Made by a program: the position numbers and the translations under genes
Notes under the pieces: model-generated
Told to the model about the DNA's origin: nothing
The model's input: the letters and a program-made list of their open reading frames with translations, nothing else
Databases searched by the model: none
Part shown: positions 23,446-29,933 of the stretch, piece by piece
Layout of the letters: the number at the start of each line of letters is the position of its first letter
Position numbering within the stretch: position 1 is the stretch's first letter
DNA from: an uncultured Methanomassiliicoccales archaeon
GTDB lineage: Archaea > Thermoplasmatota > Thermoplasmata > Methanomassiliicoccales > Methanomethylophilaceae
Length of the DNA stretch: 64,000 nt
Reading direction: 5' to 3'
Assembly: GCA_949292635.1 (NCBI GenBank)
Contig: CASEZY010000002.1
Coordinates: 62,001-126,000, forward strand

Positions 23446-24059
23446 CCGTGTCCAAGATCGTCTGCATAGGGTGGAACTACCGCCCCCACATCATCGAGAC
23501 CGACGCCGAACTCCCGAAGGAGCCCACGGTGTTCCTGAAGCCCCCGTCCTGCATCATCCATGACGGGGAGGACATCGTGATACCAGACGGTGTCACCAAC
23601 GTGCAGCATGAGGTCGAGTTGGCATTGATCGTCGGCAAGAGGTGTCACGACGTCACGGAGAGCGAGGCGTTGCGGTACATCTCCCACGTGGCGGTGTTCA
23701 ACGACGTCACCGCCAGGGACATGCAGTCCGAGGCCCGCCGTACCGGCAACCCCTGGTCGCTGGCGAAGGGGATGGATACCTTCGGTCCCCTGTCGGACCC
23801 GGTGCCTGCGGAGGGGTTGGATCTCTCCTCGTTGCATCTTACCCTCAAGGTGAACGGAGAGGTCCGGCAGGACGGCAACACCAAGGACATGATCTTCTCC
23901 CCGGCCTTCGTCGTGTCGTATCTGTCGAGATTCATGACAGTGGAGCCCGGGGACGTCATCGCCACCGGCACCCCCGAGGGCGTGTCCGAGATAAGGCGCG
24001 GCGATGTTGTCACCGCAACGATAGATGGAGTGGGAACGATCACCAACAGGGTGGCCTAA
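23442..24059 (+). CDS. Fumarylacetoacetate hydrolase-family protein
   Basis: 205 residues, a compact FAH domain of the type that hydrolyses or decarboxylates acylpyruvates or 2-keto acids. The N-terminal 'CIGWNY' is followed by the metal ligands: the E-x-E of 'HEVELALIVGK' and the Asp of 'FNDVTARDMQ'. Lys and Gly residues of the active site occur in 'LAKGMDTFGP', and the C-terminal 'IATGTPEGVSEIRRGD' is diagnostic. The exact substrate cannot be read from sequence; acylpyruvase or oxaloacetate decarboxylase are candidates. It is translationally coupled to rlmE, with no obvious functional link. Its stop overlaps that of the convergent helicase by four bases. Confidence 0.87.
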   Translation: MTVSKIVCIGWNYRPHIIETDAELPKEPTVFLKPPSCIIHDGEDIVIPDGVTNVQHEVELALIVGKRCHDVTESEALRYISHVAVFNDVTARDMQSEARRTGNPWSLAKGMDTFGPLSDPVPAEGLDLSSLHLTLKVNGEVRQDGNTKDMIFSPAFVVSYLSRFMTVEPGDVIATGTPEGVSEIRRGDVVTATIDGVGTITNRVA

Positions 24060-26803
24060 TCCCAGAACCTCTTGTTCTTGGCAAAGAGCACTTCCGCGGC
24101 GAGGATGTCCCTGAGGAACTCGTCTTCGTCGGTGTGCATACTTCTGAGTATACGGGATGCGGCATCGGGTCCGACACCCCTTCCCGCCAGGGTCAAGGCG
24201 GCCTTGCGGCCGTCCTCGTTGACCAGGTTCGCTATCCTGCGAACGCGGACCATGTCCTTCCTCTGCTCATCCGTCAGCTTCTCGCGGTCCATGCCGAAGA
24301 GGGCGATCTTGTCCCTGTCATACTCCTTCAGGGCGGCGATCATGTTCCCGCCGCAGCGGGGGCAGATGAACCTCTTGGGAGCATCCCCCACCCTGAACCT
24401 CCACTGCGACCTGCAGTTCAGGCATGACGCGAACAGCACCTCGTTCTCCAGCCTCTTCTTCAACGCCATGAGGATGGAGTGGTCCGCCCTCAGGGGCTGC
24501 ATGAGCTCCCTGGATCTGGTGATTCCTTCCATGCCCATGGGAGATACGGTGCCCACGGTCACCTTGATCTCCCCGCTGCGGATCATGGACACCGCCTTCT
24601 CGGTGTTCTCGATGTCCAGGTCCTCCCAGAGGACCTTGTTCACAGCCTCCCTGTACGCCGGCGTGTCCCTGTGCAGATCGAAGAGCCTGCCGAAGTTCAT
24701 GAAGCGGTGGTCGGCCTCCTTCTCCACGATGCCGAACTTCTTCGCCACATAGGCGAACCTCCACTTCAGGAAGGTGGAGTTCAGCACGGTCATCCTCGCA
24801 AGGGCCTCCACCGTCCCGGGTTCGATCCTCTTGAAGGTGTCCATCACCGTATCCGGCTGGATGTTGCGGGGCATCTCCAGGATTATGCGGTATTGGTCCG
24901 TGGTCACACCCACGCTCTCCCCGATCCTCGCCGCCAGCAGCGCTACGAATATCTTGCTGATGGTCTCGTTGACCTTGGTGCCGAAGCAGGCGTTTATGAT
25001 CACCAGCCGGTCCCCGAACTCCATGGTGATCAAACGGTCACTAGGCACGCTCCACTTGCTGCGCTGCTCGTTTACGTACCTGTGAACCTCAGCCTTCGCG
25101 TTGTCGTTGCACTTGTATGCGGAGAGGTCGCCGGTGCGGCGCATGCGCCCCACCTCCATGGCAACCTCGAAGGGCACGGGGATGTCCGATCCGGTCCACG
25201 ACGGCACCGAGCCGATGTCCCTGGCCTCCTCCACCAGGATCTCGTCCTCCCGCATCTCCACCACCCTCCAGGTGCGGCCCTTGGCGATGAACATGGCGTT
25301 CTGGCTTTCGAAGGTGGCCACGAAGCTCTCGTCCAGGGTGCCGATTATCGCCCTGGTGGCGATGTCGCGGATGAAGTACGACCGTTCGTCGGGGATCATG
25401 GAGATGTTGCTGTAGAAGTAATCCATCCCCTTGCGGGAGCGGCGGAAGCCGTCCTCGTCCTCGAAGAGCATCTTGATGCTCTTCAACTGCTCCAGAACGC
25501 CGTCCATGTCGTCCCGCTCCAGGTCCCTGAAGGGGTGTGCCCTGCGGAATACGGCGTAGGCGGAGTCCCTGTCGATGCGTCCGGACATGGTCATGGCGAC
25601 GAGCTGGTTCGCTACGACGGTGAGGGGACAGGGTCTTGCTGAACTGTCCTCCACCTCCCTCTCCTCGCATCTGCGGGCCACCACCATCGCCTCCATGATC
25701 TCGTCCGGTGCCGTCACCAACACCTTTGCGCGGATCTTACCGCCGATGCGGTGGCCGGCCCTGCCGGCCCTCTGGACCATGCGGGTCACCCTGCGGGGGG
25801 AGTTGTACTGTATCACCAGGTCGGTGGTTCCCACATCGATCCCCAATTCCAGGGACGACGTACATATCAATGCCTTCAGGTCGCCGCTCTTGAAGCGCTC
25901 CTCCATCTCGGTGCGCACCTCCTTGGACAGCGACCCGTGATGGACGTCGATGGGGAACTCCGGGTCCCAGTGGCGGAATCTGGCCGCCAGCCACTCTGCG
26001 GTCTCGCGGGTGTTGACGAAGAACAGGGTCGAACGCCCCTCCTCCACAAGTTGTCTAGCCCTGATCATCACCGATATGATGTCCGGGTCCCCCTGCAGCT
26101 TGTCCAGAAGGACTGCATCGTCGCAGGGGTCGGGGCGCTCGATGGAGATGTCCATGTCGCGGTGGGTGTCGTGCCTGCAAAGCGTCACCTTCCTCTTCAC
26201 GCCCACCAGGAACCTGGCCACCTCGTCGCCGTTCCCCACGGTGGCGGAGAGTCCTATCCTCTGATACTCGCCCGCCAGCAGGGTCAGGCGCTCCAAGGCC
26301 ACGGACAACTGTGCTCCGCGCTCGGTGTCCGCCAGTTCGTGGATCTCGTCCACCACCACCCAGCGGATGTTCTTCATGTGCTGCGCCAGACGTTTTCCGG
26401 TGAACATCACCTGCAGGGTCTCCGGCGTGGTGATCAGCACGTCCGGGGGATGGAGGGATTGACGGTTCCTGTCCGACGACGACGTGTCCCCGTGGCGCAC
26501 GTCCACCTTGATGTCCAGGTCGCCGCCGATGTCCTCCAGGCGGCGGAACATGTCCCTGTTAAGCGCTCTTAGAGGGGTGATGTAAAGACACCTTATGCCG
26601 GGCCGGGGGCCCTCCTCCCGCATGGCGTCCAGGATCGGAAGCATGGCCGCCTCGGTCTTGCCGATGCCGGTGGGCGCCAACAACAGCACATTGTCGCCCC
26701 TGGCGATCCTGGGCCCGGTGTCCCGCTGGGGGTCGGTGGGCTCGGTCATCCCCCTGGCCGCCAGAACCGATTGCAGTTCCGCGGACAGGTAGTCGAATGT
26801 CAT
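24056..26803 (-). CDS. Lhr-core-type superfamily 2 helicase with zinc finger
   Basis: 915 residues, the usual archaeal Lhr length. Motifs: 'TDPQRDTGP' (Q-like), Walker A 'APTGIGKTEAA', 'TPLRALNRD', 'TTPETLQV', DEIH, 'LSATVG', 'LFFVNTRETAEW', 'TSSLELGIDVG' and 'QRAGRAGHR'. A C-terminal region after the winged-helix domain carries a zinc ribbon 'CLNC...CPRC'. Unwinding of RNA or DNA with ATP is expected. It is the second Lhr-type helicase in the window and clearly different from the 1788-residue one. It lies downstream of hdrD on the same strand, separated by a perfect 9-bp-stem hairpin. Confidence 0.93.
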   Translation of the reverse strand: MTFDYLSAELQSVLAARGMTEPTDPQRDTGPRIARGDNVLLLAPTGIGKTEAAMLPILDAMREEGPRPGIRCLYITPLRALNRDMFRRLEDIGGDLDIKVDVRHGDTSSSDRNRQSLHPPDVLITTPETLQVMFTGKRLAQHMKNIRWVVVDEIHELADTERGAQLSVALERLTLLAGEYQRIGLSATVGNGDEVARFLVGVKRKVTLCRHDTHRDMDISIERPDPCDDAVLLDKLQGDPDIISVMIRARQLVEEGRSTLFFVNTRETAEWLAARFRHWDPEFPIDVHHGSLSKEVRTEMEERFKSGDLKALICTSSLELGIDVGTTDLVIQYNSPRRVTRMVQRAGRAGHRIGGKIRAKVLVTAPDEIMEAMVVARRCEEREVEDSSARPCPLTVVANQLVAMTMSGRIDRDSAYAVFRRAHPFRDLERDDMDGVLEQLKSIKMLFEDEDGFRRSRKGMDYFYSNISMIPDERSYFIRDIATRAIIGTLDESFVATFESQNAMFIAKGRTWRVVEMREDEILVEEARDIGSVPSWTGSDIPVPFEVAMEVGRMRRTGDLSAYKCNDNAKAEVHRYVNEQRSKWSVPSDRLITMEFGDRLVIINACFGTKVNETISKIFVALLAARIGESVGVTTDQYRIILEMPRNIQPDTVMDTFKRIEPGTVEALARMTVLNSTFLKWRFAYVAKKFGIVEKEADHRFMNFGRLFDLHRDTPAYREAVNKVLWEDLDIENTEKAVSMIRSGEIKVTVGTVSPMGMEGITRSRELMQPLRADHSILMALKKRLENEVLFASCLNCRSQWRFRVGDAPKRFICPRCGGNMIAALKEYDRDKIALFGMDREKLTDEQRKDMVRVRRIANLVNEDGRKAALTLAGRGVGPDAASRILRSMHTDEDEFLRDILAAEVLFAKNKRFWD

Positions 26804-26852: not shown

Positions 26853-28547
26853 TCACTTTCTCTTCTTGGCCTTCTTCATGGCGCGCATCTGTTCCTTGAT
26901 CGTCTCGCGGATGATGATCGCCTGCTTCTCGCCGTCGGTGACGTCGGCGGGGTCGAACTTCAGAACGACCCAACCCTCGTCCTCCAGGGGCTTGCGGGCG
27001 TCGGTGTCGTCGTGCTCGACGAAGACAGCGACCTTGCCCTTCACGAAGGCCACGGGGATCTGGTACTCCCCGTAGTATCTCCTGCACCTGAGCTTCTTGT
27101 TCCAGGCGGCCCTCCTGACCACTCCCTCGGGGGTGAGCTCGTAGTTGAACTCATCCTCGTCGTATCCGGCCAGGTCGTTGGCTTCCTCGGCGATCTCCTC
27201 GGTTGCGACCTCGGCCACTGCGGCATCCGTGGCTGCGGGAGCCACTGCGGGCTGTGCTGCAGGGGCGGCCTCGGCGGCTGCCGCGGCAGGTGCTGCAGCG
27301 GGAGCGGCGGCGGGGGCTTCGGCCTTGGGTTCGGGCTTAGGCTCGACCTTGGGCGCGGTGACCTCCAGCAGGACCTCGGAGATGTCCATGATCTTGATGG
27401 GGGAGTTGAGCTTCTTGGCGCCGGCCTTCAGGTTCAGCACGCAGAAGGGGCAGGCGGTGACGATGATCTCGGCACCAACGGCCTCGGCGTCGTGGATCCT
27501 CTCGGCGGCGATGTTGACGGCGAAGTCGTTGAAGGCGGACTTGTATCCTCCTCCGGCACCGCAGCAGCGGGAGTTCTCGCGGTTCTTTTCCATCTCCACG
27601 AACTCCAGGCCCTTGATCTTCTTCAGGATGTTCCTGGGCTCCTCGTAGACCTTGGAGTGCCTTCCCAGGTGGCAGGGGTCGTGGTAGGTGACCTTGTGGT
27701 TGAACTCGTTGTTCAGGGGGAGCTTCCTCTCCTTGATCAGGCGGTCAACGTACTGGGTGAAGTGGTAGACGTTCTGGCCGGTCTTGGAGTAGTACTCCCC
27801 GAAGTTGGAGGAGACGGTCTTGTAGCATCCGGCGCAGGTCATGACCATGTCCTTGGCTCCGACGCCGTCGGCCTTGGTGACGGTGGTGATGGCCAGGTTC
27901 ATGGTGTGGGCGGTGATACCGGTCCTCAGCATGGGGGAGGAGCAGCAGACCTCGTCCTCGCCCAGGCAGTTCATGGAGACGCCGGCGCGGGCCAGCACCT
28001 TCACTCCCGCGGTGGGGATGTGCTGCATCCTGTAGGAACCGGTGCATCCGGCGAACATGATGGCGTCGGGGACCTGTGCCCTCTCGACGTCCTCGGGCCA
28101 CCAGGCGTCCCTCTTGGCCCTGGGCTCGCCGAAGGAGTTGCCGGTCTTGGCGATCTTCTCGGAGATGCCCTTGTGGACGGGCAGGGGGGCGACGCCCTCC
28201 TGGACCAGCCATGCCCTGACGGTCTCCCACAGCTTGACGAGCTCGATGTTGGCGTGGCAGACGGCCTCGCAGTTCCCGCAGCCGGTGCACTTGAACATTG
28301 CATCGACGAACTCGGGGGAGATGGTGGCCTTCCTGCCGAGGAGCTTGTCAACGGCGCCGAAGCCGGCCTTGTCCAGCTGGTTCAGGTAGTAGATCTTGCC
28401 TCTGGCGGTGACGGACTCCCAGGGGGTCTGTCTGTGCGTCTCGCAGACGTCGATGCAGTATCCGCACATCTGACATTGGGCCAGCTCGCGGGTGATCCTC
28501 GGGAGCTTGATGAGCTTGGGCTTATCGGGCAGATTGATCGTGGCCAT
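26853..28547 (-). CDS. hdrD: Heterodisulfide reductase subunit HdrD with extra C-terminal domain
   Basis: Catalytic subunit that reduces the CoM-S-S-CoB heterodisulfide in the last step of methanogenesis. Two ferredoxin clusters: Cys25/28/31/35 and Cys87/90/93/97. Two CCG domains for non-cubane [4Fe-4S] clusters: Cys168, Cys194, Cys201-202, Cys238/241, and Cys292, Cys328-329, Cys366/369. The normal protein ends near residue 395. Here an Ala/Pro/Glu linker (about 398-458) leads to a basic domain (about 470-564). That domain resembles the Vsr/DUF559 nuclease-like fold ('WNKKLRCRRYYGEYQIPVAF', 'KVAVFVEHDD', 'LEDEGWVVLKF'). No hdrE is adjacent, consistent with Methanomassiliicoccales, where HdrD is proposed to pair with an Fpo-like complex. 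Confidence 0.93.
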   Translation of the reverse strand: MATINLPDKPKLIKLPRITRELAQCQMCGYCIDVCETHRQTPWESVTARGKIYYLNQLDKAGFGAVDKLLGRKATISPEFVDAMFKCTGCGNCEAVCHANIELVKLWETVRAWLVQEGVAPLPVHKGISEKIAKTGNSFGEPRAKRDAWWPEDVERAQVPDAIMFAGCTGSYRMQHIPTAGVKVLARAGVSMNCLGEDEVCCSSPMLRTGITAHTMNLAITTVTKADGVGAKDMVMTCAGCYKTVSSNFGEYYSKTGQNVYHFTQYVDRLIKERKLPLNNEFNHKVTYHDPCHLGRHSKVYEEPRNILKKIKGLEFVEMEKNRENSRCCGAGGGYKSAFNDFAVNIAAERIHDAEAVGAEIIVTACPFCVLNLKAGAKKLNSPIKIMDISEVLLEVTAPKVEPKPEPKAEAPAAAPAAAPAAAAAEAAPAAQPAVAPAATDAAVAEVATEEIAEEANDLAGYDEDEFNYELTPEGVVRRAAWNKKLRCRRYYGEYQIPVAFVKGKVAVFVEHDDTDARKPLEDEGWVVLKFDPADVTDGEKQAIIIRETIKEQMRAMKKAKKRK

Positions 28548-28799: not shown

Positions 28800-29933
28800 A
28801 TGCCCTCCGGAACGGCGTATTTTGACAATGCGGCCACCACGATGACCCTTCCCGAGGTGGCGGAGGCCATGCGCCCCTACTTCACCGAGATGTACGGCAA
28901 CCCCAGCAGCCTCCATTCCATGGGGGCCGATGCGGCGGAAGCCCTGCGCAAGGCGCGCAAGAGCGTGGCGGACGCCCTGGGATGCTATCCCTCAGAGATC
29001 ATCTTCACCGCCGGAGGCACGGAATCGGACAACATGGCGGTGCTGGGCACCTTCCCCGGGGCGGGAGGGCGCGTGGTCACCACCGCCATCGAGCACTCCG
29101 CGATACTGGAGACATGCGGGGAGGTCAGGCGCAGGGGCGGCGCGTCCACGCTGATCCCCGTTGATTCCGAGGGATTCCTGGACCTGTCCGCCTTGGATTC
29201 GGCCATGGGCGACGATGTGTACCTCGTCTCCGTGATGGCCGCCAACAACGTCATCGGCACCATCGAGGACATCCGTGAGTGCGCCAAGATCGCACACGAG
29301 CACGGTGCGCTGTTCCATACCGACGCCGTTCAAGGGTTTACAAAGATGGATATCAACGTCAAGAGGGACGGTATTGACATGCTTTCGTTGTCCGGGCACA
29401 AGATCCACGGCCCCAAAGGCATCGGAGCATTCTATGTCAAGTCGGGAACGGACATTCGTCCCATCGTCTTCGGCGGCGGTCAGGAGAACGGCCTCCGCTC
29501 ATCCACCGAGAATGTCCCCGGGATAGTGGGTCTCGGCAAGGCGGTGGACATCGCCATGTCCAACATGGGCGGGGACATGCGCAGGATGACGGAGATGCGG
29601 GACCGCATCATCGATTCCGTACTCGATATCCCGGGTGCGGCGTTGAACGGTCCCCGTCACGACAGGCTCTGCAACAACGCCCACTTCCGCTTCGACGGTG
29701 TGAAGGGCAACAGCCTCGTCCTCGCGCTGAGCAGGAATGGTGTGGCGGTCTCCACCGCCTCCGCCTGCTCCGCCGGCGACACCGAGCCATCCCACGTGCT
29801 CTCGGCGATAGGGCTCACCCCCCAGCAGTCCATGTCCGCGTTAAGGGTAACGCTGTCGCACCTGAACACCGACGCCGAGGTCGACCTTCTGTTGAAGGTC
29901 CTCCCCGACGCGGTGCGTGAGTGCCGGGTCTAA
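28800..29933 (+). CDS. iscS: Cysteine desulfurase (NifS/IscS type)
   Basis: Pyridoxal-phosphate enzyme that removes sulfur from cysteine for Fe-S cluster and thio-modification pathways. 377 residues with 'YFDNAATT' and 'YGNPSSLH' at the N-terminus, '[10 protein letters not shown]' for PLP, and 'HTDAVQ'. The Schiff-base lysine is in '[11 protein letters not shown]', and the mobile catalytic Cys in '[15 protein letters not shown]'. A TATA element at leaderless spacing supports the start. It is divergent from hdrD, an Fe-S-rich protein, but no scaffold gene is adjacent. It converges on copA with four overlapping bases. Confidence 0.94.

Follow-up and report, generated by a model that had tools for sequence, protein, structure and literature searches.

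A Vsr-like domain, predicted to be catalytically dead, at the C-terminus of HdrD and on membrane proteins of gut methanogens

The hdrE gene is absent throughout the order Methanomassiliicoccales (PMC4153887, PMC7374477), and the HdrD of these archaea is believed to act at the membrane beside an Fpo-like complex, a direct contact between HdrD and Fpo being assumed (PMC7374477). The HdrD of these gut methanogens, which add to ruminant methane, must reach the Fpo-like complex without HdrE. The other system to be compared is the endonuclease Vsr, whose fold also occurs in a non-nuclease form: the RAP domain of FASTKD4 has a Vsr-like fold, is devoid of nuclease activity and binds RNA (PMC11879112). 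In the literature searched, no paper pairs heterodisulfide reductase with Vsr or describes the domain on HdrD.

The stretch of DNA analysed, hereafter the window, comprises 64,000 nucleotides from an uncultured Methanomassiliicoccales archaeon, and a minus-strand ORF at positions 26853-28547 encodes its HdrD (564 codons, 564 aa). The catalytic core (residues 1-395; 27363..28547, minus strand) consists of an N-terminal [4Fe-4S] dicluster part and two CCG domains; in Pfam it matched PF02754 (the two CCG domains, E 1.3e-34) along with Fe-S dicluster domains, and the best curated NCBI matches of the core were TfrB and related CCG proteins, all below their own cut-offs. The assignment to HdrD relies on the presence of two CCG cysteine motifs (C168-C201C202-C238xxC241 and C292-C328C329-C366xxC369) and of two [4Fe-4S] motifs (C25/28/31/35 and C87/90/93/97), whose cysteines are invariant in 28 HdrD orthologues. 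As an earlier note on this DNA had proposed, the second CCG domain is followed by a linker and a basic domain of about 95 residues: an Ala/Pro/Glu-rich flexible linker with a net charge of -12, a high dN and many indels (residues 396-468; 27144..27362, minus strand) leads to a putatively dead Vsr-like C-terminal domain, recognized by profile homology and predicted fold (residues 469-564; 26856..27143, minus strand). The protein closes with the basic tail QMRAMKKAKKRK (26856..26891, minus strand), ending KKAKKRK, in which 7 of the 12 residues are K or R and which is found in most carriers of the domain. The redox chemistry of HdrD is predicted to be untouched by the C-terminal domain.

Downstream of hdrD, and separated from it by 49 bases, a large Lhr-type ATP-dependent helicase is encoded in the same orientation (24056-26803, minus strand), and this adjacency is preserved in most compared relatives, with the domain present or not. 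On the other side, a cysteine desulfurase-like gene (28800-29933, plus strand) is divergent from hdrD, a pairing that recurs in several relatives. The same genome encodes a second HdrD-like protein (L072, G000:C15:50411-51472; 408-codon frame, 37% identity) without a Vsr-like domain. Here and below, families are labelled f1-f6, genera g1-g14 (g1 being the window's own genus), genomes G and loci L.

Two AlphaFold models, one of the domain alone (43-row alignment, mean pLDDT 79) and one of full-length HdrD (28 rows), were in agreement; the N-terminal Fe-S part of the latter (1-103) had low pLDDT and was not usable. In the full-length model, pLDDT was below 50 over residues 408-469, as in a disordered linker, and the block means were 84-94 over residues 471-560, with 76 for the last four residues, so that linker and domain are predicted to be separately folding units, a disordered tether and then a confidently folded domain. 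The topology of the latter (residues 470-564) is alpha-beta-beta-beta-alpha-beta-alpha, the elements in the full-length model being H473-483, E489-492, E497-501, E506-509, H515-523, E527-530 and H540-563. A Foldseek search with the domain model, the check that the earlier note had proposed, placed it among restriction-endonuclease-like folds, the best PDB match being the catalytic domain of the Vsr-like endonuclease I-Bth0305I (3r3p; E 8.3e-4, TM 0.69). Further PDB matches were NGO0050 (TM 0.65) and, among the top ones, LSU chains of Toxoplasma mitoribosome proteins, and a viral structure library returned DUF559, Vsr and homing endonucleases.

Single-sequence searches with the window's domain alone against Pfam, NCBIfam and the PDB gave nothing useful: the domain had no match to DUF559 (PF04480) in Pfam, no TIGR00632 match was listed in NCBIfam for the protein or the domain, and a profile search of PDB sequences with the domain yielded chance matches alone. 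The Vsr/DUF559 matches emerged only on scanning all 43 family members against Pfam, with DUF559 matched by 22 of the 43 (best E 4.6e-5), Vsr by 15 (best 1.2e-4) and MTES_1575 (PF18741) by 4. When the HdrD domain was aligned by hhalign with 13 Vsr proteins, the probability was 99.3% (E 7e-21) over 78 columns, against 0.07% for an unrelated alignment used as negative control. This reference set is made of short profile-found proteins, 12 of which belong to this archaeal family, the thirteenth coming from another part of the phylum; the one tested against TIGR00632 was above the cut-off (E 1.1e-40, 138.6 bits) and the others resemble genuine Vsr. The better of two domain members tried reached 28 bits, as compared with the 138.6 bits of that genuine Vsr and a TIGR00632 cut-off of 97.85 bits. 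The C-terminal domain of HdrD is homologous to the Vsr mismatch endonuclease in both sequence and fold, and the Vsr/DUF559-like fold that the earlier note had recognized is thereby borne out by profiles and fold search alike. No genuine Vsr was found in the window's own genome; two congeners have one.

In the hhalign alignment, the pattern E..LR..LW..G.RYR and the KVAVF strand are kept with respect to Vsr, and about 27 residues are deleted, namely the FWHG histidine segment (H64/H69) and the following helix, the gap falling exactly over FWHG..RD. Glu474 (27126..27128, minus strand) is aligned with the E25 position of Vsr and is retained here, its conservation in the family not being strict. 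The aspartate expected in the first strand, which had not been obvious at first reading, is indeed missing: Pro498 (QIPVAF; 27054..27056, minus strand) stands at the position of the Vsr catalytic Asp51 (PDIAF). By an approximate text-pattern count over 79 copies, the D51-equivalent is most often Pro (about 58), less often Thr (about 10) or Asp (about 4), with Asp retained in some copies of genus g8. From its residues, then, the domain is predicted to be catalytically dead, in line with the non-catalytic module that had been suspected. The idea of an active nuclease fused to HdrD, which could appeal to the fold, the ancestry and the Asp of a few g8 copies, is highly improbable and was rejected, as the copy in the window and nearly all others have lost the D51-equivalent and the two active-site histidines are deleted with their segment.

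Of the 147 genomes of the order, 132 have one HdrD orthologue (a single match each at E <= 1e-100). Some Methanomassiliicoccales HdrDs lack the extension, a point that the earlier note had left to be checked: the domain occurs in family f1 alone, with true copies in about 84 of its 102 genomes (not counting four that show weak Vsr-like matches only), and several genera are without it. It is borne by HdrD in genera g1, g2, g3, g5, g6, g8, g9, g12 and g14, and short HdrDs of about 391-450 aa, without the domain, occur in g4, g11, g13 and all other families. No domain was found in the other families of the order or in viral contigs, and among 390 genomes sampled across the phylum the matches outside f1 were weak ones alone, corresponding to genuine Vsr genes or Vsr-like sequences. 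In an HdrD tree rooted with outgroup families, the domain was acquired once, following the divergence from g4/g11/g13 (99/96), and lost about four times (g10, g7, G033 and G028); three of these losses (g10, g7 and G033) lie in lineages having a membrane version of the domain, described below, and one in a lineage without it.

The variable linker and the missing domain in several genera might point to a non-functional extension or to an assembly or frameshift artefact, as the earlier note had considered. This is extremely unlikely, since the domain follows HdrD in over 30 separate assemblies, single-contig genomes included, its fold is predicted with high confidence, its conservation is lineage-specific and its dN/dS, comparing the window with relatives, is about 0.14-0.33, the linker being much more diverged; no eroded remnant was present in the short HdrDs where tested, and the artefact was rejected. 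The domain on HdrD is real and under purifying selection. In genus g8 it is found on HdrD in 4-7 tandem copies. Among termite-associated relatives, the HdrD ORFs L034, L069, L025 and L095 have four to five tandem domains and G050 has up to seven; the last tandem copy keeps Asp at the D51 position in several of these relatives.

A second protein ending in the same domain was found in genera g3, g6, g7, g9, g10 and g14. It is composed of about 190 residues with roughly six hydrophobic helices, joined through a long, charged linker to the domain, after which a basic tail usually follows. The six-helix part is DUF998-derived (hhalign 98.7%, E 2.3e-16), and its invariant residues are mostly Gly and hydrophobic, as in an anchor. 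Membrane-anchored carriers include L087:1349-2836, L092:1554-3026, L141:603-1526 and L142:2707-3864; two of the carriers, in G062 (308 aa) and G027 (386 aa), are short and have one or two hydrophobic helices at the N-terminus; no carriers other than HdrD and membrane proteins were found. The six-helix carrier gene lies between a divergently transcribed beta-CASP RNase J-like gene and the genes for a WWIP membrane protein, TFS, PCNA and transketolase; in the window's own genus and in other lineages the RNase J-WWIP/TFS/PCNA locus is intact and the carrier gene is absent. The WWIP membrane protein next to TFS and PCNA (L130:4630-5673, L087:2914-3705) is conserved as WWIP..G..AGY.GGR..G and has no Pfam or NCBIfam family. 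A further ORF resembling the membrane carriers (L143:3-1304) has three domain copies, the first two strongly diverged.

In a domain tree, based on a short alignment of 95 columns and with many forks open, the HdrD and membrane copies are interleaved, with at least five changes, and a single clade of the HdrD single copies was rejected at a modest p value (AU p 0.032). Both an HdrD and a membrane carrier occur in one genome in g3, g6, g9 and g14. Domain copies might accordingly associate with one another, so as to cluster HdrD or attach it to the membrane protein, as could the tandem copies (up to 7), and the related I-Bth0305I works as a dimer on DNA (PMC3943268). We hold such self-association to be rather unlikely: many genomes (g1, g12 and most of g10) encode just one copy, on one protein, so that pairing across proteins cannot be a requirement.

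Concerning HdrE (PF02665, a b-type cytochrome), no match over the cut-off was obtained in 8 of 8 genomes, the Methanosarcina control being positive, and among these HdrE-negative genomes several HdrDs (g10, g11, f5, f6) are also without the domain. As HdrE is without a match whether or not HdrD has the domain, the latter is not a general substitute for HdrE, and the docking domain replacing HdrE that the earlier note had put forward is unsupported as a general rule, the more so as the domain is also carried by membrane proteins other than HdrD. Docking to Fpo or to a membrane protein is possible within the domain-bearing lineages. In its fuller form this explanation has the domain attach HdrD, in place of HdrE, to the headless Fpo-like complex or to a membrane protein, with the DUF998-like version recruiting HdrD in trans. 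It would agree with the lack of HdrE matches, with the direct HdrD-Fpo contact assumed in the literature (PMC7374477), with the fact that every non-HdrD carrier is a membrane protein and with the loss of the HdrD copy mainly where a membrane copy is present. We consider it doubtful, however, because the domain is missing from HdrD in all sampled f2-f6 genomes and in g4, g11 and g13, where HdrE is missing or unreported too, so that HdrE-free operation does not require it; moreover, the membrane version sits in an information-processing locus away from the fpo/hdr genes, and the lineages with the domain on HdrD only have no domain-bearing membrane partner.

The domain is best read as a portable module that has passed between HdrD and membrane anchors, not as a nuclease. 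It is probably a domesticated, dead relative of Vsr which, tethered by its long disordered linker, would serve as a non-catalytic module for binding or tethering and reach a partner distant from the HdrD active site. It would thus link one and the same cytosolic partner to HdrD or to the integral membrane anchor, the task common to both carriers being to hold this partner at the membrane or to be held there. We propose a shared task because membrane anchors bear this tethered domain too and because, of the four HdrD losses, three belong to lineages possessing the membrane version, a coincidence that suggests a shared function. As a module carried by HdrD in certain lineages and by membrane proteins elsewhere, it offers a concrete handle on HdrD placement at the membrane.

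More speculatively, the partner may be a nucleic acid or a ribonucleoprotein. This is plausible because of the DNA-binding-enzyme ancestry, the arginines kept and the usually basic tail, together with the RAP/FASTKD4 precedent and the position of the membrane version between RNase J and TFS/PCNA. A Vsr-like mode of DNA recognition would be unlikely, since the deleted FWH region is the DNA-recognition insert of Vsr, and the hdrD neighbourhood offers no specific argument for nucleic acid, the downstream helicase being the same with or without the domain. Acidic patches count against nucleic-acid binding, as does the net charge, which varies among carriers (-2 to +17 on HdrD, -11 to +11 on membrane carriers). 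Only tentatively do we entertain that the dead Vsr module couples the terminal enzyme of methanogenesis, or a membrane anchor, to the nucleic-acid/ribosome machinery. HdrD would have acquired it, membrane proteins would have received copies, and HdrD would have discarded its own wherever the membrane version is sufficient; if true, energy metabolism or the membrane would be tethered to the nucleoid or to transcripts.

Compared with the known systems, the HdrD of the window shares two CCG domains and two [4Fe-4S] clusters with the HdrD of the Methanosarcina HdrDE and of other Methanomassiliicoccales, nearly every genome of the order having an orthologue, whereas those proteins stop at about residue 395-440 and have neither linker nor C-terminal domain. 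With Vsr (TIGR00632 / PF03852), intact genes of which are present within the same archaeal family, the domain has in common the 78 homologous columns, the order of the core and the two kept motifs; unlike Vsr, it is without the FWHG/His segment, mostly has Pro at the Asp51 position, scores below the family cut-off and is fused via a linker to HdrD or to membrane anchors. DUF559 and MTES_1575 resemble it through weak, repeated Pfam matches (22 and 4 of 43) and fold matches, but the domain lacks their active-site pattern, has another architecture and finds its best profile partner in Vsr. The RAP domains of FASTKD4/FASTK and the Toxoplasma mitoribosome proteins are likewise non-nuclease Vsr-like folds, the mitoribosome LSU chains being top fold matches; unlike the HdrD domain, RAP proteins are eukaryotic and mitochondrial with FAST domains in front, and the likeness is at the level of the fold only, RAP not being among the Pfam matches of the 43 members. 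As a dead Vsr-like RNA binder, RAP/FASTKD4 is the closest functional precedent, and the HdrD domain would be a further case of a nuclease fold domesticated to a non-catalytic module, here fused to an archaeal core redox enzyme.
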